A DNA stretch of 64,000 bases from Gammaproteobacteria bacterium. GTDB taxonomy: Bacteria; Pseudomonadota; Gammaproteobacteria; Pseudomonadales; Pseudomonadaceae. Below, in pieces: positions 655 through 15,122 of this stretch. The stretch spans positions 1-64,000 of the forward strand of contig JAAYFD010000032.1 in the NCBI GenBank assembly GCA_012728415.1, in the 5' to 3' direction. The notes beneath the pieces are model-generated. The model was not told the DNA's origin, made no database searches, and saw nothing but the letters and a program-made list of their open reading frames with translations. The position numbers were made by a program, and so were the translations under genes. Position 1 is the stretch's first letter. Each line of letters opens with the position of its first letter.

Positions 655-1422
655 ATGACAGTAAAGAACCACAGCATATTCCAGCACATTGACCGCCTCA
701 AAGCCCGGCTCGACCAGCATCCCCCCTTACCGCCTGCTGTGGTCAGCAATCTGCGCGAGAACCTGATCCTCAACTGGACCTATCACAGCAACGCCATTGA
801 AGGAAACACCCTTACCCTGAAAGAAACCCGCGTCGCGCTGGAAGGCATTACGGTGGGCGGCAAAACCCTGCGCGAGCACTTTGAAGCCATCAATCACCGT
901 GACGCCATTTTGTTGCTGGAAGAACAGGTTCAGCAGAAAAGCCAAATTACAGAATGGTTGATCAAATCCTTGCATCAGCTGGTGCTGAAAAACATCGACG
1001 ATGAAAACGCAGGCCGTTATCGCACCACCAACGTGCTGATTGCCGGGGCCACACACCGCCCGCCGGATGCCCTGCAAGTGCCACAACTGATGGAACAATT
1101 CATTGCTCAACTGCAACAGCAGGCACAAACCCTGCATCCGGTTGAGCTTGCCGCCCGCGCCCATGGCGAGCTGGTCAAAATTCACCCTTTCACCGACGGC
1201 AATGGTCGCACCTCGCGCCTGCTGATGAACCTCATCCTGCTACAGGCCGGGCTGCCAGCGGCAATCATCAAGGTTGAACAACGGCTGGCATACTACAGCG
1301 CACTGGACAAAGCCCATACCACAGGCGACTACCAGGACTTTATTGCGCTAGTGGGACAGTGCGTAGTGGAAGGGTTTGAGACGTATTGGTGGGGGCTGGG
1401 CATTAACGCATGGAAGAAATGA
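655..1422 (+). CDS. Fic family protein (class II-like, N-terminal inhibitory motif)
   Basis: HPFTDGNGRTSR matches HxFx(D/E)GNGRxxR; SNAIEGN matches (S/T)xxxE(G/N) inhibitory motif. Confidence 0.92.
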   Translation: MTVKNHSIFQHIDRLKARLDQHPPLPPAVVSNLRENLILNWTYHSNAIEGNTLTLKETRVALEGITVGGKTLREHFEAINHRDAILLLEEQVQQKSQITEWLIKSLHQLVLKNIDDENAGRYRTTNVLIAGATHRPPDALQVPQLMEQFIAQLQQQAQTLHPVELAARAHGELVKIHPFTDGNGRTSRLLMNLILLQAGLPAAIIKVEQRLAYYSALDKAHTTGDYQDFIALVGQCVVEGFETYWWGLGINAWKK

Positions 1423-5144: not shown

Positions 5145-5993
5145 TTATTCTTCGTAACCAAAAAATTCACAAGGCCTATTTAAATTGATTTTCGTAATGC
5201 CATGATTAACTCTCTGTTCAACTGGCGGTAAAGACATATAATCCCCATATGTGTTTTTCAAATAAAAATCAGGATCAAGTGGGGCAGGAAAAAAATGGCC
5301 TTCGAACTCCACCTCAGAAAAAGGAAGCATACTTGCCTTATTGAAGACCTCAGAAGGCATCTCAAAAACAGAGCCCACATACTCACTTTTATTATATTTT
5401 TTACATGACTCTAACCAATCAATCACTGAAACCAGAGCAGAAACAGGGATTTTTTTCAAAATGAATTCAAAACCTGAGAATAGAGAGGGAAAAAATCTGA
5501 AAGCACTTTTATATCTATCCACAAGACTACGCTTAAACTTTAACTTAAAAATAAAAAAAAATACCTGCATTATTCGCCAGCGCAGAGCCCTGAAAAATCC
5601 ATTCTCGAACTGGCCATCAATAGGAAACACATCAATCCAAGCAGCTGAATAGTGTTGGCGACCATTTATATTTCTATGAATTGAAGTAGAGAAATCATAA
5701 ATACGGGTCACATGCCATATATATCCTGACATATAGTCAGAGGGCGTAATAATTTTCATACGGCCAGGCATAAGATCTCTAACCTCAATTAATTTTTCAT
5801 AGTCTGGCCTTGGCATCATAATATCAACATCATCATCCCAAGGTATAAATCCCCTATGCCTTACGGCGCCTAATAATGTGCCATAACAAAGACAATATTT
5901 AATATTGAATTTCTTACAAATTGCGTCAAAATCAACAAGCATCTTTAACAAGTGATTTTTATAAGACTCGAGCGTATCTTCTGAGTTTTCCAC
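5145..5993 (-). CDS. LicD family protein (phosphocholine/phosphonate-type transferase)
   Basis: CLCYGTLLGAVRHRGFIPWDDDVDIMMPRPDY is the LicD nucleotidyltransferase-fold signature. Confidence 0.9.
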   Translation of the reverse strand: MENSEDTLESYKNHLLKMLVDFDAICKKFNIKYCLCYGTLLGAVRHRGFIPWDDDVDIMMPRPDYEKLIEVRDLMPGRMKIITPSDYMSGYIWHVTRIYDFSTSIHRNINGRQHYSAAWIDVFPIDGQFENGFFRALRWRIMQVFFFIFKLKFKRSLVDRYKSAFRFFPSLFSGFEFILKKIPVSALVSVIDWLESCKKYNKSEYVGSVFEMPSEVFNKASMLPFSEVEFEGHFFPAPLDPDFYLKNTYGDYMSLPPVEQRVNHGITKINLNRPCEFFGYEE

Positions 5994-6036
5994 TTAACGG
6001 CTCTCCTAATAAAGGCATCTTCAATTAGGGCGCTTA

Positions 6037-7875
6037 TCAAACTTTATCGTTATCCCCACGCAAGGCTTTCTCTATATACTCTCTTAATAGACAAACAAAG
6101 TGTTGAATATCATTTTTATCTACCTGCCCAATATTAGCTATACGGAAGGTATTAAACTCTTCAACCTTTCCAGGATAAATAGTATAGCCAAGACTGTAAA
6201 AATGATCATGCATTTTATTAAAATCCAACTCTTCGGGTAGGTTAATAGATGTGATAATTTTAGAGTGATGTGCATCATCCACCAAATAGGTCAGCCCCAT
6301 TTGTTTAAGCTCGCTGGTTAGTAATTCCCAAGACTCGCTGTAGCGTTGATAACGCTGGGCTATGCCTTCTTTTTTTGCCTCTATTACGGCTTGTTTTAGG
6401 GCGTAAAGGGTTTGCACAGGTGGGGTAAAACGCATTTGACGGGTTTTAATGAAGCTGCTGTATTGTTCATGTAAACTAAGATAAAACGTTCTTGGCTCTA
6501 TATCTTTTAGGCTATCAAACTTTATTTTACTGGCAACAATAAAGCAGATACCCGCCATGCCCTGAATATTTTTATTGCTACTAGCTACAAGGTAAGTGAT
6601 GTTTTGCTCTTGCATGTCAATTGGCAATGCAGCGTAAGAGCTCATAGCATCCAAAATCACATCCAATTGATATTTGGCAGCTAACTTGCCAATGCCTTCA
6701 ATATCGTTAAGTAAACCAGTCGTGGTTTCATTGTGAATAAGCGCCAAATGGCTAAATTGTGTATTTTGCTGAATTATTTCTTCGAGTCTGGCTAAATCAA
6801 CAGGCTCTACGGGCGAGCTGTTAAATTCCACAAAATTCATTTTATAGCGACTGGCAATTTCGCACATGCGCTGTCCGTAAGCTCCATTATTAATTATCAG
6901 CACCGCTTTATCGTGCGGCACCACTGAGGTGAGTACAGATTCTACAGCCGCTGTACCGCTACCACCAAAGAGCACAGAAGTATAAGTTTCCGGATTGGCC
7001 ACAATCGAGGTTAATTCTACTGAAACAAACTCCATCAGCTCACCAAACTCTTGCTCTCGCGGACAAATATCAGGCACCACCTGCGCGAGCTTTACGCTGT
7101 CAGTAGTAGTAGCTGGACCAGGATTTAGTAATATATTTCGTTTGATTTGTATATTAGCCGCTTTAATTTTAGGTAAAACAAGTTTAAGGGCGCGGGCAAG
7201 ATGCTGGGCGTCGTCAATTTCGCACCAAGCAAGCGAGTCAATTTTTTTTATTTTAAAAGGTGCAGGATGATGGGCGTTGTTTACAGCCACTAAAATATAT
7301 TCATAGTCAATTTTCTTATTATCTTGAGCAGCGTAAACTTCACACATAGCATGGTAAGAGGCTTGAGAGATTGAAGTAATGCCCACTAGTTCAGCACTTA
7401 TATGTGTTAGCTGCTTGGCTTCTTTAGACATTTTTTGCAGAGTATTATCACCAGCAGCCTGTATATAAACCTCATCATTAGAGTGGGTAGTACCGCTAGC
7501 CAAAATCGTATCGGAGCTGTGAATCAAGTGCTTGATTGCATCAGATTCATAGAGTAAATCTGACTCCAGCAATAAAAAATCCTCATTCAGGTATTTGCGC
7601 ATAACAAAAAGTGTTTCCATACTACCAGTATTCGAGAAATCACTATTGTTAATGCAGATAATCTCAGGAAACTTCTGTGCAAATGTTTGATAGTGCTCCG
7701 CTAAATAGCCTGTACCTATAAAAATCTTTTCGATACCTGCTTTGAGTAAATTATTAACACTGCGCTCAATCAGGCTAATACCCTCAATAGGCAAAAAACC
7801 TTTCGGCATTGTTTTGGTTTTATCTTTCAAACGACTGCCAAATCCGGCAGCAAGAATTACAGCAACCTTAATCAC
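6037..7875 (-). CDS. Bifunctional NTP transferase (PntC-like, CMP-AEP forming) / 2-aminoethylphosphonate-pyruvate transaminase
   Basis: N-term AVILAAGFGSRLKDKTKTMPKGFLPI (NTP transferase); C-term NILLNPGPATTTDSVK and ASSNKNIQGMAG (PhnW-like PLP fold). Confidence 0.85.
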   Translation of the reverse strand: MIKVAVILAAGFGSRLKDKTKTMPKGFLPIEGISLIERSVNNLLKAGIEKIFIGTGYLAEHYQTFAQKFPEIICINNSDFSNTGSMETLFVMRKYLNEDFLLLESDLLYESDAIKHLIHSSDTILASGTTHSNDEVYIQAAGDNTLQKMSKEAKQLTHISAELVGITSISQASYHAMCEVYAAQDNKKIDYEYILVAVNNAHHPAPFKIKKIDSLAWCEIDDAQHLARALKLVLPKIKAANIQIKRNILLNPGPATTTDSVKLAQVVPDICPREQEFGELMEFVSVELTSIVANPETYTSVLFGGSGTAAVESVLTSVVPHDKAVLIINNGAYGQRMCEIASRYKMNFVEFNSSPVEPVDLARLEEIIQQNTQFSHLALIHNETTTGLLNDIEGIGKLAAKYQLDVILDAMSSYAALPIDMQEQNITYLVASSNKNIQGMAGICFIVASKIKFDSLKDIEPRTFYLSLHEQYSSFIKTRQMRFTPPVQTLYALKQAVIEAKKEGIAQRYQRYSESWELLTSELKQMGLTYLVDDAHHSKIITSINLPEELDFNKMHDHFYSLGYTIYPGKVEEFNTFRIANIGQVDKNDIQHFVCLLREYIEKALRGDNDKV

Positions 7876-8558
7876 AGCCTCTCCATAATCACATTAAATC
7901 TTAACTTTGAATTACCGTACTCTTTAAAATCCTGATCGAATACGTCTATTTTCAAACCATTCTTATTTGCAAAGTTCACAAACCATTCTTTTTCGTAAAA
8001 CAAGTGCTCAAGATCTTTATATTTTTCATTATATTCTTCAGCATTCAACCCTTGAGACCTAATCAAGTGATACTCTTGTTCTTTTTCTTTATCATTAACA
8101 TCTAATATTGCAATTTTATTTTTTGACTTCTCAATCATTTTACCCAACACCAATTCTGCGTACTCATGGTTAGGAAAGTAATGAAAAACCCCATGCGAAA
8201 GAACCAAATCATACTTTTTATTTATATCCATATGTGCTGCCTCTGCAACAACAAACTTCCCCTCTCGCATAACTGTGCTAGCCAGCTCAATTAATACCTC
8301 TGAAAAGTCTAGCCCGCCCACAGAGTTACCTCTTTTGAAAAACGGATACAAAAAAGCTCCGCTTCCACAACCAACCTCAAAGACAGCATCTTCTAAACCT
8401 ATATCAAGCCTGCTAATTAGCTTATCGGTGTAAACCTTCCAATTATTCAAATTAAAAGCACCTGCACCAAAATCAAAACCATCAGCCTTTATTAGTATCT
8501 CCAATATTGCGCCCGATACTCTTTCTTCTTTATTCCAAATTTTACTCCAGTTTTTCAT
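7872..8558 (-). CDS. Class I SAM-dependent methyltransferase
   Basis: VFEVGCGSGAFLYPF motif I; YDLVLSHGVFHYF. Confidence 0.8.
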   Translation of the reverse strand: MKNWSKIWNKEERVSGAILEILIKADGFDFGAGAFNLNNWKVYTDKLISRLDIGLEDAVFEVGCGSGAFLYPFFKRGNSVGGLDFSEVLIELASTVMREGKFVVAEAAHMDINKKYDLVLSHGVFHYFPNHEYAELVLGKMIEKSKNKIAILDVNDKEKEQEYHLIRSQGLNAEEYNEKYKDLEHLFYEKEWFVNFANKNGLKIDVFDQDFKEYGNSKLRFNVIMERL

Positions 8559-8568
8559 AACGATTGCC

Positions 8569-9639
8569 TTAAAATTTATTTTTCATAACAACATCTAAAG
8601 GTGGCCGTGGCATCTCTGGATCTTCTCCACATTTCACATGAATAAAGCTCAATCCACTTTGTTTTTGTGCTACTATCAAAACATCAACAAATTCTTGAAC
8701 ATTAGTTATCACCTTTTCATGACAGCTTAAGCCAGAGGCTTTAGCGATACTTATATAGTTAACGTGAGCTTGGTAAGTATTTTGTCCTCCAGTAGATTTA
8801 TTACTTTCGTTATCAAATAAAATGTAGGTTAAATTGATGTCTTTGGCGTAACGTCCTGCGGTAGTTAAGCCGCCCATATGCATAACAAATTCAGCGTCGC
8901 CACCACAGACAATTACTTTTTTGCCAGCTTTAGCCGCACCCACTCCAACGGACAGCGCTCCACCCATATTGCCGGCCATATAAAAATTTTCGGTATCTGG
9001 CATAAAACTGTACATTTCACGGGCGGTGTTTCCTGTGGTACCCACAAACAAGGCTTCGCTATTGGCAAAGGCTTGGTTCATTGCGTTTAAAAATTTACTA
9101 CGTGGCACGTAGGAGGAAAGATCTAAACGGTGTTCGGGTAAAAGCTTAACTTTGGTAAAGCTATTCTTTTTGAGCACACCGATTTTCATACCTTGATCTA
9201 GGCTTCTGATTTGTGCCAAGATATTATTCAAGTTTTCGTTGTCCAAAATTTCATACTCATACCCATAAGATTTAATTAATTCTGGCAGTTCAGTGGCAAG
9301 GTGTTTGTGCTGAATTTCACTATCACCTTCTTTATAAGTACGCCAACTGGTAATGATAGGAAACTGCACGCCATACGGGTTCAGCAAGCTGGTGATACAG
9401 CTGCCCATATTTGTTATTCCGCTAGACTGTACAACCACCACTGGTTTTTTACCTGCCATTTTTAGCCCTGCAGCTATGGAACAAGCTATCGCTTCACTGG
9501 CACAGGGTAGATAGTCAATATTAGGATTATTAATTGCTTCGTTAATAAGAAATTTAGCAAAACTACAAGGCACCACACATAGATGTGAAACGCCCTGATC
9601 GATTAAACCCTGAACAAAGCTTTCGGTATGAATAGGCAT
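8569..9639 (-). CDS. Phosphonopyruvate decarboxylase
   Basis: TPP-binding decarboxylase; ASEAIACSIAAGLKMAGKKPVVVVQSSGITNMG and DNESNKSTGGQNTY; next to PEP mutase. Confidence 0.88.
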   Translation of the reverse strand: MPIHTESFVQGLIDQGVSHLCVVPCSFAKFLINEAINNPNIDYLPCASEAIACSIAAGLKMAGKKPVVVVQSSGITNMGSCITSLLNPYGVQFPIITSWRTYKEGDSEIQHKHLATELPELIKSYGYEYEILDNENLNNILAQIRSLDQGMKIGVLKKNSFTKVKLLPEHRLDLSSYVPRSKFLNAMNQAFANSEALFVGTTGNTAREMYSFMPDTENFYMAGNMGGALSVGVGAAKAGKKVIVCGGDAEFVMHMGGLTTAGRYAKDINLTYILFDNESNKSTGGQNTYQAHVNYISIAKASGLSCHEKVITNVQEFVDVLIVAQKQSGLSFIHVKCGEDPEMPRPPLDVVMKNKF

Positions 9640-9662
9640 ATAATACTTACTTATATTGTTTA

Positions 9663-10973
9663 CTAACGAGTACCTGGGATTAAATTCAAAATATCTTTAA
9701 TTGGCATGCAATCTGATTCAGCCTCTAAACTGCGCTTATTTTTAAGAATGGACTTGGCCACCTTCATCATGCCAGGGTAAGCTGCACGTAGCATGTGGTT
9801 GGCATAAATGACCACATTTACACCAAGCTCAACAAACTCGTCGGTAGTTACACTATTAAAAGATGTGGGCACAACAATTAGTGGTGTGTGCATATCCTGA
9901 GTACGGAATTTTTGTACAAACTCGATAATTTCAGCTGGGTCTTTATGACGAGAGTGAATCATAATGCCGTCAGCGCCGGCCTCTATATAGGCGTGTGCTC
10001 TAGCCAGAGCATCATCCATGCCCGCCTCTAAAATTAGGCTTTCCACGCGTGCGACTATCATAAAATCTTGAGTGATTTGTGCAGCCTTGCCAACCTTTAT
10101 TTTCTCACAAAAACTTTCAATAGAGTCTTGTTTTTGTATAACTTCATTGCCAAACAAAGAATTTTTCTTTAGCCCTGTTTTATCTTCAATAATTGCTCCG
10201 CTAACCCCCAAACGCTCCAAGGTTTTTACTGTGAACTCAAAGTGCTCTGTTTTTCCTCCTGTATCTGCGTCGTAAATCATTGGTAAAGTGGTTGCTTCAA
10301 AAATTTCATTAATAGTATTAGTTCGAGCAGTAGTATCCACAGCCTCGATATCAGGCTTACCTTTGGAAGTGGAGTCAGTCAACGAACTTGACCACATGGC
10401 ATCAAACTTGACAACTTCCCCCCCCTCAGTAATTTCTTCAGCATTTTCAGCAATCAGCCCACTTAAAGCATTGTGAACTTCTAGAATTTTCACTATAGGT
10501 TTTGCTTCAATTAGTTTTCGCAGGCGACCTAAGCGAGCGGTAGCAGTAATACCTAGTTTGTTTTTTTTATCTTTAACATTAGCTTCGCTAATTTCTGAGC
10601 TATAAGAAACCTCAATAAGCTTACCGCCCCACCTAGCCAATATATCAATCACTTCTTGTCGATATTTTCGCTGACTATTGATCTTCCAGTCATCACCTCG
10701 CACAACAAAATCTGGTTTCAACGCTTCCAAATTTTCTTTATAACTCGCGCTTTCTTGGGGAATCACCTCGCTAACCATCGATAAGGTTTCTAGCACTTCC
10801 TTGCGTGTATCATAATCCAGATAAGGTACATCATTCACTTCTCCTCCCGCTTTATCCGTCCATAGACCAACGATGACAGTACCATACTTAGCGGCTTCTT
10901 TTAAAACTCTGATATGGCCTGCGTGGAGCAAATCACCAATCAGACTTACATATACTTTAGGCATTATTGACAA
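9663..10973 (-). CDS. Phosphoenolpyruvate mutase with N-terminal HxGH nucleotidyltransferase-like domain
   Basis: EDKTGLKKNSLFG matches EDKxxxxxNS of PepM; N-term VYVSLIGDLLHAGHIRVLKEAAKYGTVIVGLWTD. Confidence 0.92.
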   Translation of the reverse strand: MSIMPKVYVSLIGDLLHAGHIRVLKEAAKYGTVIVGLWTDKAGGEVNDVPYLDYDTRKEVLETLSMVSEVIPQESASYKENLEALKPDFVVRGDDWKINSQRKYRQEVIDILARWGGKLIEVSYSSEISEANVKDKKNKLGITATARLGRLRKLIEAKPIVKILEVHNALSGLIAENAEEITEGGEVVKFDAMWSSSLTDSTSKGKPDIEAVDTTARTNTINEIFEATTLPMIYDADTGGKTEHFEFTVKTLERLGVSGAIIEDKTGLKKNSLFGNEVIQKQDSIESFCEKIKVGKAAQITQDFMIVARVESLILEAGMDDALARAHAYIEAGADGIMIHSRHKDPAEIIEFVQKFRTQDMHTPLIVVPTSFNSVTTDEFVELGVNVVIYANHMLRAAYPGMMKVAKSILKNKRSLEAESDCMPIKDILNLIPGTR

Positions 10974-12911: not shown

Positions 12912-13372
12912 TTAGTTTTTCGTGATTAATTCGTAGTAAGTGCCGCGCCCCTGGCCGCAGCGTATGAGGATGTTTTTTGCCACTAGACCATCCAGAACGT
13001 AGTACGCTTTTGTTTGCTGAACGCCCAATACGCCTATGGCTTGTTTCTGGTGATTGTTTGCTTGCTTAGTAGATGATCAATGATCAGTTTTTCATTTGGC
13101 GTTAATCGTTCGTAATCGTTCACAATCGACCGTAATCGTTCGGCGTTACCCATGTTTTCAGAGTCACCAGCAGGTTCAAAATCAAACACCACCCACACAC
13201 CATTAGGCTCCACTTTCCATTCTGGCGTGGGGTAATCGTCCTGTTTGCAGGCTTCAATAATGCGTTCGATGCCGCGCCCCCAGGCTTCTATCAGTCCGGC
13301 CAGGAAAAAGCATTTGGCAATTTCCGGGTTGTACGGGATGGACTCATGCTTGCCCAGTAGCTCGTCTTTCCA
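12912..13372 (-). pseudogene. 3' remnant of an ATP-binding protein with AlbA_2/HATPase_c_4-like C-terminus, frameshifted
   Basis: Minus-strand frame 13372-13034 reads WKDELLGKHESIPYNPEIAKCFFLAGLIEAWGRGIERIIEACKQDDYPTPEWKVEPNGVWVVFDF...ERLTPNEKLIIDHLLSKQTITRNKP*; homology resumes in another frame as VLGVQQTKAYYVLDGLVAKNILIRCGQGRGTYYELITKN*; in-frame TAA precedes WKDELL. Confidence 0.75.
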
Positions 13373-13402
13373 TTAGCGTTTTCCTTGTTTTGACTGTGCC
13401 GG

Positions 13403-13912
13403 TTAACCTTTTACTGTCCAGTTCATATTTGCTTTTAAGATTTTCTGACCCACCACACAAGGGTGGGCATCTATCGCTTTAATTTGCTGCTTCAGCTTGG
13501 TTTGCAAATCAGCAACGTCAATCGTAAACAACCTATTTTTGCTTTGCTCAACATGCAAAACAACTCTTATTCTTGAGCTTTTCAGGGCGTTTTTCGCAAA
13601 ATCTTTTTCTTCTGCACTCGCATTGCGTTCAGCTGCGACCAAACCAGCAAGAGTATCTTTAACTTTTGCAGCTACAGTGTTTGCCAAAACAGAGGGCTTA
13701 ATTTTTTCAGTATCAGGATGACGGTAGTCCTTGACCTCAATTAACCATGTATTATTACTGGATTTATCTATATAAATAAAATCTACAGCTTTAGTCCCAT
13801 TCACTACCTTTACAAATCGGCTTCTATAAAACGCCCATTCATCATATTTACTAGCTTCGGAATTACTGGCAGAGTCAAACGTAAACTTTAGGTTTTTTTC
13901 AATCAGAATCAT
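13403..13912 (-). CDS. Small protein with PD-(D/E)XK-like core (putative nuclease partner of the adjacent ATPase)
   Basis: AVDFIYIDKSSNNTWLIEVKDYR resembles D...ExK; start overlaps upstream ATPase ORF by 14 nt. Confidence 0.6.
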   Translation of the reverse strand: MILIEKNLKFTFDSASNSEASKYDEWAFYRSRFVKVVNGTKAVDFIYIDKSSNNTWLIEVKDYRHPDTEKIKPSVLANTVAAKVKDTLAGLVAAERNASAEEKDFAKNALKSSRIRVVLHVEQSKNRLFTIDVADLQTKLKQQIKAIDAHPCVVGQKILKANMNWTVKG

Positions 13913-14963
13913 CCGTCAACTCCATAAAGCGATCCGTTTGCTGTAATGCTTCATCCAGCAATACAAGTGTTTGCAAGTCAGTTAGCTCGCTTCCTTGCTC
14001 GATGGAAATCTCGTTTTCGCTTAAAGCCAGAGAAAAGAACTTTTGCGTGTAATTTTTGTTGCCGTCCTTCCTGCAAATAATTTCAAGTTCACGTAGTAAA
14101 AATAATGAATGCGTAGCGATAAAAATTTGCACTCCGCTAGCAGCCAGTGTGTAAATAACCTGCGCAACCAGTTTAATCAGTTTCGGATTCAGATTGGCCT
14201 CAGGCTCATCCCAAAAAATATAGCCGTTTTCTTGCAGCACACCATTACTTATCAGCTGTGCAAGCATGGCCAGCTTGCGTAAACCCTCGGACACCAGCTG
14301 CATTTCCATATTGCCGGCTCCTGCTTTACTCAAATAAAACCTCCCGGTTTTATCCAGGATGACTTTACCTGACATGGCCTGCTCAAGTGGCTCAAGCAAA
14401 TCCGCAACGGATGCTGAGCGTCGCCCTTTTAACTGCGGAACTCCCAAGTGAATACAGGTATCACGCCATGTTTCTTCAAAGGGCACATGATGCATATCGT
14501 ATAGCGCGACAAAGCCCGGATAAATGGTCATCAATTCGCGGGTTGGTAAAAACAGGGCACGTGCTTTTTGCCATTTTTTCGGCAGTTGCTCAACTTGCAC
14601 ATCACTTTGGGCGTTAGTAGCGAAACTGATACGGGTATCAAGGGTGGAATCTGCAAACGTTAAAGAAATTTCACAGCGGGCACGGCCTTGCTTTCTGCTG
14701 GCCAGTCGCCCCAGGGCATCGGGCTTAAAGACGCCCATGAGCTTTTCAGCATAAGCCTTTTGCAAAAGGGTTTTGGTCGGGCTAGTGTCGGGCTGTTTGC
14801 GGCCTGTTTCTTCACTGGTAGCAAGCAAGGCATACGTGGCTTTCAACAGGTGTGTTTTGCCTGTGCCGTTTTCGCCGATAAAGACATTCAGCCCCGCAGC
14901 AAACTCCAGGCGGTGCTCACCAGGGAAAAGCGTAAGATTGGTTGCGGTTAATTGCTTTATCAT
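13899..14963 (-). CDS. AAA family ATPase (RecF/SMC/ABC-like, AAA_21 type)
   Basis: Walker A GENGTGKT; LVSEGLRKLAMLAQLI signature; Walker B GYIFWDEPEANLNP; IFIATHSLFLLREL. Confidence 0.85.
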   Translation of the reverse strand: MIKQLTATNLTLFPGEHRLEFAAGLNVFIGENGTGKTHLLKATYALLATSEETGRKQPDTSPTKTLLQKAYAEKLMGVFKPDALGRLASRKQGRARCEISLTFADSTLDTRISFATNAQSDVQVEQLPKKWQKARALFLPTRELMTIYPGFVALYDMHHVPFEETWRDTCIHLGVPQLKGRRSASVADLLEPLEQAMSGKVILDKTGRFYLSKAGAGNMEMQLVSEGLRKLAMLAQLISNGVLQENGYIFWDEPEANLNPKLIKLVAQVIYTLAASGVQIFIATHSLFLLRELEIICRKDGNKNYTQKFFSLALSENEISIEQGSELTDLQTLVLLDEALQQTDRFMELTDDSD

Positions 14964-15122
14964 GTTTCTACTCAGGCCAGAAAGTATAGGTAAACAGGCT
15001 TTGCAGATTAGCATACCTGCTGGCTAATGCGTCACACTCGTCATTGCCCGGCCTGCCCGGGCAATCCCCGCAACTCATGGAACTGGCTGTGCAAAACGCG
15101 GCCTGACTGGTTCAGCGCTTCC

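Follow-up and report, generated by a model that had tools for sequence, protein, structure and literature searches.

An apparently complete HEC-02 pair, a catalogued two-gene candidate anti-phage system of an SMC-like ATPase and a putative PD-(D/E)XK nuclease

Do two overlapping genes in a Pseudomonadaceae genome form an anti-phage system, and is this system new? The pair lies in a stretch of 64,000 nucleotides, here called the window (Table 1), and an earlier reading of the letters (the sequence-only reading) had described it as an ATPase gene overlapping a 169-aa gene with a VDFIYID...WLIEVK core, located in an accessory patch. We found both open reading frames intact, with the ATPase gene as the upstream and the small gene as the downstream member, and the core is present in the small protein. 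Translational coupling of the two genes is likely, given their 14-bp coding overlap. An in-frame ATG at 15014 adds 17 residues to the ATPase, and most homologues begin at the position corresponding to 14963. The GC content of the two genes (47.3% and 37.5%, compared to 54.6% for the window) agrees with the view of an accessory patch.

Table 1. Positions of the two genes, their overlap and the adjoining gene remnant in the window
Feature	Position	Strand	Basis
HATPase_c_4 (PF13749) gene remnant	about 13010..13390	-	Pfam match, E 5e-10; 5' part missing, frame-shifted
HEC-02 small gene, 169 aa, putative PD-(D/E)XK nuclease	13403..13912	-	PADLOC PDLC04145 'HEC-02A'
Coding overlap of ATPase and small gene, 14 bp	13899..13912	-	GGAG just 5' of the small-gene ATG
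HEC-02 ATPase gene, 354 aa	13899..14963	-	Open reading frame; Pfam AAA_21/AAA_15; PADLOC PDLC04146 'HEC-02B'

Both proteins were searched against the defence models of PADLOC-DB 2.0.0 (2023), a step that the sequence-only reading had recommended, and both were assigned to HEC-02. The ATPase matched PDLC04146 over residues 1-349 of 354 (E = 2.3e-155), and the small protein matched PDLC04145 over residues 3-168 of 169 (E = 9.7e-59). No other system in PADLOC came near the HEC-02 score, and the small protein matched HEC-02 models alone. When tested for the HEC-02 gene arrangement, the two genes were adjacent and co-directional with the overlap described above. HEC-02 models also matched most members of the aligned small-protein family. 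The lettering of the models is swapped: in PDLC04145 and PDLC04146, A denotes the small protein and B the ATPase, whereas the remaining HEC-02 models encountered (PDLC04213-04230) use the letters the other way round. An NCBIfam search gave nothing usable. Judged by these matches, the window pair is apparently a HEC-02 module, complete and intact, and belongs to a candidate anti-phage system of two genes. We conclude that the pair exists as described and that its role is probably defence. It is not new, because HEC-02 is already catalogued in PADLOC, and the earlier claim that it fits no known defence type has to be abandoned.

HEC reportedly stands for Hma-embedded candidate, a series said to originate from a preprint (Payne et al. 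2024, bioRxiv). According to papers that cite this series, HEC-04, an ABC ATPase-TOPRIM protein, acts against T4 and T5 (PMC12111858), and activity has also been reported for HEC-05, which is BrxU, and for HEC-06, a GmrSD-like protein (PMC11411939, PMC12988326). For HEC-02, a literature search outside of which the source preprint lay returned no biology paper naming the system, its mechanism or an assay. The label 'uncharacterised' given earlier thus holds for mechanism and assays in the literature searched, but not for the pair as such, which has a catalogue entry.

Searching GTDB genomes with the ATPase gave 80 loci. The aligned set consists of 57 loci with an intact following small gene, including two that were added (L002 and L004), and comprises 58 rows together with the window (alignment A1). 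At loci that yielded no small gene, the contig had often ended or the simple ORF rule had failed. The gaps between the genes at the 57 other loci are mostly -14 to +11 bp, and the pairwise identities of the ATPase and of the small protein correlate (r = 0.67, with 0/1000 permutations as high; shared phylogeny contributes to this value). Since the order and spacing recur at 57 loci and the distance matrices correlate, we consider that the pairing is not due to chance, and the correlated divergence of the two sequences fits a long-term partnership. Hosts of the family include proteobacteria, Firmicutes, Bacteroidota, Planctomycetes, Synergistota, Akkermansia and others.

Two coupled genes could also serve as a toxin-antitoxin or anti-plasmid module; the ATPase would then hold a nuclease toxin in check, and selection would act on maintenance of the element rather than on phage defence. 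In line with this, the AbiEii toxin appears in the name that Pfam gives to the ATPase domain, and AriA of PARIS, a related ATPase, was deposited as 'AriA antitoxin'. However, relatives of the small protein were detected in just two records of the plasmid search (Pseudanabaena and Paracoccus), and searches of IMG/VR and of phages with the small protein gave no viral or phage relatives. The embedding of relatives in BREX and Hma operons (see below) also favours defence, and we regard a toxin-antitoxin or anti-plasmid function as unlikely.

The small protein had been suspected to contain a D/ExK nuclease core. In the 58 aligned sequences, window included, E59 is invariant (58/58), K61 and K83 are each retained in 57/58, and position 44 is occupied by D in 46 and by E in 12. 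We propose that D44, E59 and K61, plus K83 on a helix, form the active site. Only two of the 58 aligned proteins deviate from the motif, those of loci L037 (9009-9584) and L055 (9038-9562), with the substitutions N for K83 and R for K61; by their sequences, these proteins are possibly inactive or use alternative sites.

The AlphaFold2 model of the small protein, computed on A1, had a mean pLDDT of 95.9 and a pTM of 0.91. It contains, in this order, strands 45-49 and 54-62, a helix (73-97), a strand (114-122) and a further helix (133-144), with D44 placed just before the first strand, E59 and K61 on or beside the second, and K83 on the helix that follows. In the model, this order of elements is the one expected of PD-(D/E)XK proteins. 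Pfam searches with single family members gave weak matches to NERD, DpnII, SduA_C and Hjc, all of which are PD-(D/E)XK families. Using HHalign, D44 and E59-x-K61 were paired with the D and ExK of the NERD profile (P = 5e-5, probability 68%), compared to a probability of 0.9% for the ATPase, which served as a control. Foldseek did not find a match to the model in the PDB at E<0.001: the three best matches were hyaluronidases (E about 0.02, poor alignment), and those to PD-(D/E)XK proteins (Avs3, SfsA, Hef, MunI, Mus81 and arenavirus L) were weak, with TM values of 0.2-0.3. The sole match in a profile search of solved structures was Hjc (1gef), with an E of 0.54 that is not evidence by itself. 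Taken together, the conserved D/E44, E59 and K61, the alignment with NERD and the confident structure prediction, which had also been suggested beforehand, agree with the suspected core. The small protein probably has a PD-(D/E)XK nuclease fold, which we call supported rather than proven because of the lack of a significant Foldseek match.

For the ATPase, the description as a RecF/ABC-type protein without TOPRIM stood up to the tests. Pfam assigned AAA/SMC/ABC-type domains only (AAA_21/AAA_15/SMC_N), and a TOPRIM domain was found neither among the Pfam matches nor in the structure model (pLDDT 92.2), in which only a beta hairpin and, at the C terminus, a helix (331-352) come after the head. 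Walker A (GENGTGKT, residues 30-37), the signature region (G227...K230), Walker B (FWDEPEANLNPK, residues 249-255) and the H-loop (ATH285) show no or almost no variation across 43 homologues, with G30, E31, N32, G33, G35, K36, D252, E253, P254, E255 and H285 present in 43/43. Among solved structures, the model matched SMC heads, Rad50, Septu PtuA (8eea, 8ee4, 8sux) and retron I-A ATPases (E 1e-14 to 1e-11), and the best matches by sequence profile were the PtuA proteins of Retron-Ec78/retron I-A.

The genes around relatives of the pair bear on its function. In a genome of the same order (L101, 1244-14057), we found HmaA, PtuA, HmaB, the HEC-02 pair and HmaC in succession. This defence locus is nested: HmaA and HmaB enclose a PtuA-type ATPase gene, and HmaB and HmaC enclose HEC-02. 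In a member of the Negativicutes (L028) and in Marasmitruncus (L041), the pair is placed in the series BrxC, PglX, HEC-02, PglZ and BrxL, and in a member of the Synergistales (L046) it stands between BrxC and PglX. The insertion point of HEC-02 thus varies among the BREX operons of these three lineages, and the PglX sequence of L046 is spread over two ORFs. In Paenibacillus puerhi (L027), an Argonaute gene (5525-7654, minus strand; pAgo model, E = 5e-268) is located near the pair. A bulk PADLOC scan of 116 neighbour proteins and 106 proteins from arbitrary regions matched 79 versus 26 models at E<=1e-20, a coarse comparison, given the overlap among models and the presence of a reverse transcriptase in the control set. 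Therefore, we used the embedded operons as evidence. The closest relatives (L005 and L006, ATPase 73-74% identical) have two neighbours each without a PADLOC match, as in the window, and another neighbour in L005 is a sugar-nucleotide enzyme. The proposal that the pair serves defence is thus in accordance with the location of homologous pairs in defence islands, inside Hma and BREX operons and beside pAgo, while the window locus itself is a polysaccharide region.

The SMC/Rad50-type head of the ATPase and the weak profile resemblance of the small protein to the Hjc resolvase would also suit a housekeeping pair for DNA repair or end processing (of the Rad50/Mre11 or RecF kind) that hitch-hikes in defence islands. 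Against this stand the insertion of HEC-02 within Hma and BREX operons, the low GC content of the window genes and the patchy spread of the family, which was detected in 3/295 genomes of the order, in 4/369 of the class at E<=1e-50 and in 0/3 of the other genomes sampled from the same genus. We consider a housekeeping role very improbable.

The window copy has no recognisable defence island around it. Directly downstream of the pair, and adjoining the module without being part of it, lies the remnant of a HATPase_c_4 gene, presumably of the AlbA_2/HATPase_c_4 regulator type. The broken gene noticed earlier is indeed truncated at its 5' end and frame-shifted. Past this remnant follow an ABC exporter, a phosphoenolpyruvate mutase and related sugar/phosphonate genes, and the opposite flank of the pair carries a GT2 glycosyltransferase gene. 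The pair is AT-rich and lies between these flanks beside the broken gene, which gives the locus the appearance of an accessory insertion within a surface-polysaccharide region. In another genome of the same genus, the GT2 gene (88% identical) is present without HEC-02 directly after it, on a contig that ends 270 bp later.

Part of this region (6037-10973, minus strand) encodes a fusion of PEP mutase with a cytidylyltransferase-like domain, a protein resembling phosphonopyruvate decarboxylase and a further fusion of a nucleotidyltransferase with an aminotransferase. The cluster was read from translations, with a test of the PEP mutase protein alone, and its gene content suggests a phosphonate-decorated surface glycan. 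A Fic/DOC-family protein (PF02661, E = 2e-24) is encoded at 655-1422 (plus strand), near the window edge.

The truncated and frame-shifted neighbour and the isolation of the pair in a polysaccharide region could indicate that the window copy is a passive relic that decays beside a broken gene, with the family being active elsewhere. However, both ORFs are intact and have kept all conserved residues, the overlap and the ribosome-binding site, and decay of this copy appears quite improbable to us.

We think it rather probable that HEC-02 is a candidate anti-phage module acting, like Septu, as an ATP-gated sensor-nuclease in which a PD-(D/E)XK protein takes the place of HNH. In such a mechanism, head-to-head dimers or higher oligomers of the SMC/Rad50-like ATPase would bind ATP and keep the small PD-(D/E)XK protein inactive. 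A phage-induced cue (a change in the nucleotide pool, DNA ends or intermediates of replication) would change the ATP state, and the released nuclease would cut nucleic acid and stop phage replication directly or via killing of the cell. Among systems studied by experiment, Septu is the nearest precedent, and its defence requires Walker residues of the ATPase as well as HNH residues (PMC13096335).

The same module could also target RNA (e.g., tRNA) through the small protein, with abortive infection as the outcome, a behaviour reported for the PtuAB of retron-Eco7 and for Septu EcB88. No feature of the HEC-02 sequence separates DNA from RNA, and members of the PD-(D/E)XK superfamily mostly cut DNA, their default substrate, which counts against an RNA target. 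For a Septu other than EcB88, an action on nicked DNA has been reported. In its favour, the PtuA group is among the closest structural relatives of the HEC-02 ATPase, and the PtuAB of retron-Eco7 depletes tRNA-Tyr while Septu EcB88 cuts tRNA-Tyr (PMC11555353, PMC13096335). We regard RNA targeting as possible but doubtful.

In a wider formulation that we put forward tentatively, HEC-02 would be a widespread nuclease system gated by ATP, with a stand-alone PD-(D/E)XK effector under the control of an SMC-like ATPase, in parallel to Septu but with an independently recruited nuclease, a new trigger and a new substrate. If the reading of an ATPase-gated PD-(D/E)XK protein is true, HEC-02 would represent the Septu design, an SMC-like ATPase with a small nuclease, built on another nuclease fold; as it stands, the pair is a further member of a listed candidate. 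The compact intact pair identified here provides testable residues for this catalogued candidate.

In comparison to HEC-02 as defined in PADLOC, both full-length proteins, the gene order and the spacing are shared, and no structural difference was found; the window copy is not embedded in Hma or BREX, whereas the same-order relative has the pair between HmaB and HmaC. Likeness of the small protein to NERD, DpnII, Hjc and SduA lies in the D...ExK active-site pattern, which aligns with it, and is confined to the core, with no significant fold match in the PDB. Gabija (GajA), OLD, HEC-04 and the effector of retron Eco8 have an ABC-type ATPase of the same superfamily as HEC-02. GajA, OLD and the retron Eco8 effector carry TOPRIM on the ATPase chain. 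The same is described for HEC-04 (PMC12111858), whereas the HEC-02 ATPase has none. An assignment to Gabija, OLD or retron Eco8 was rejected on the absence of TOPRIM from the Pfam matches and the model. The ATPase domains of PARIS (AriA/AriB) and AbiL (AbiLi) resemble that of HEC-02 (AriA, 5e-21; AbiLi, 2e-14), and both systems were rejected, as the small protein matches neither the AriB nor the AbiL partner model. Membership in Septu was also rejected: the best PtuA model gave an E of 8e-10, compared to 2e-155 for HEC-02, and the small protein had no PtuB/HNH match. Septu (PtuA and PtuB) and the effectors of retron I-A/Ec78 likewise combine an ATPase and a small nuclease in two genes, and the solved structures nearest to the HEC-02 ATPase include Septu PtuA. 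However, the Septu ATPase comprises about 460-550 aa, compared to 354 aa in HEC-02, and its partner nuclease is an HNH protein, whereas that of HEC-02 is PD-(D/E)XK-like.
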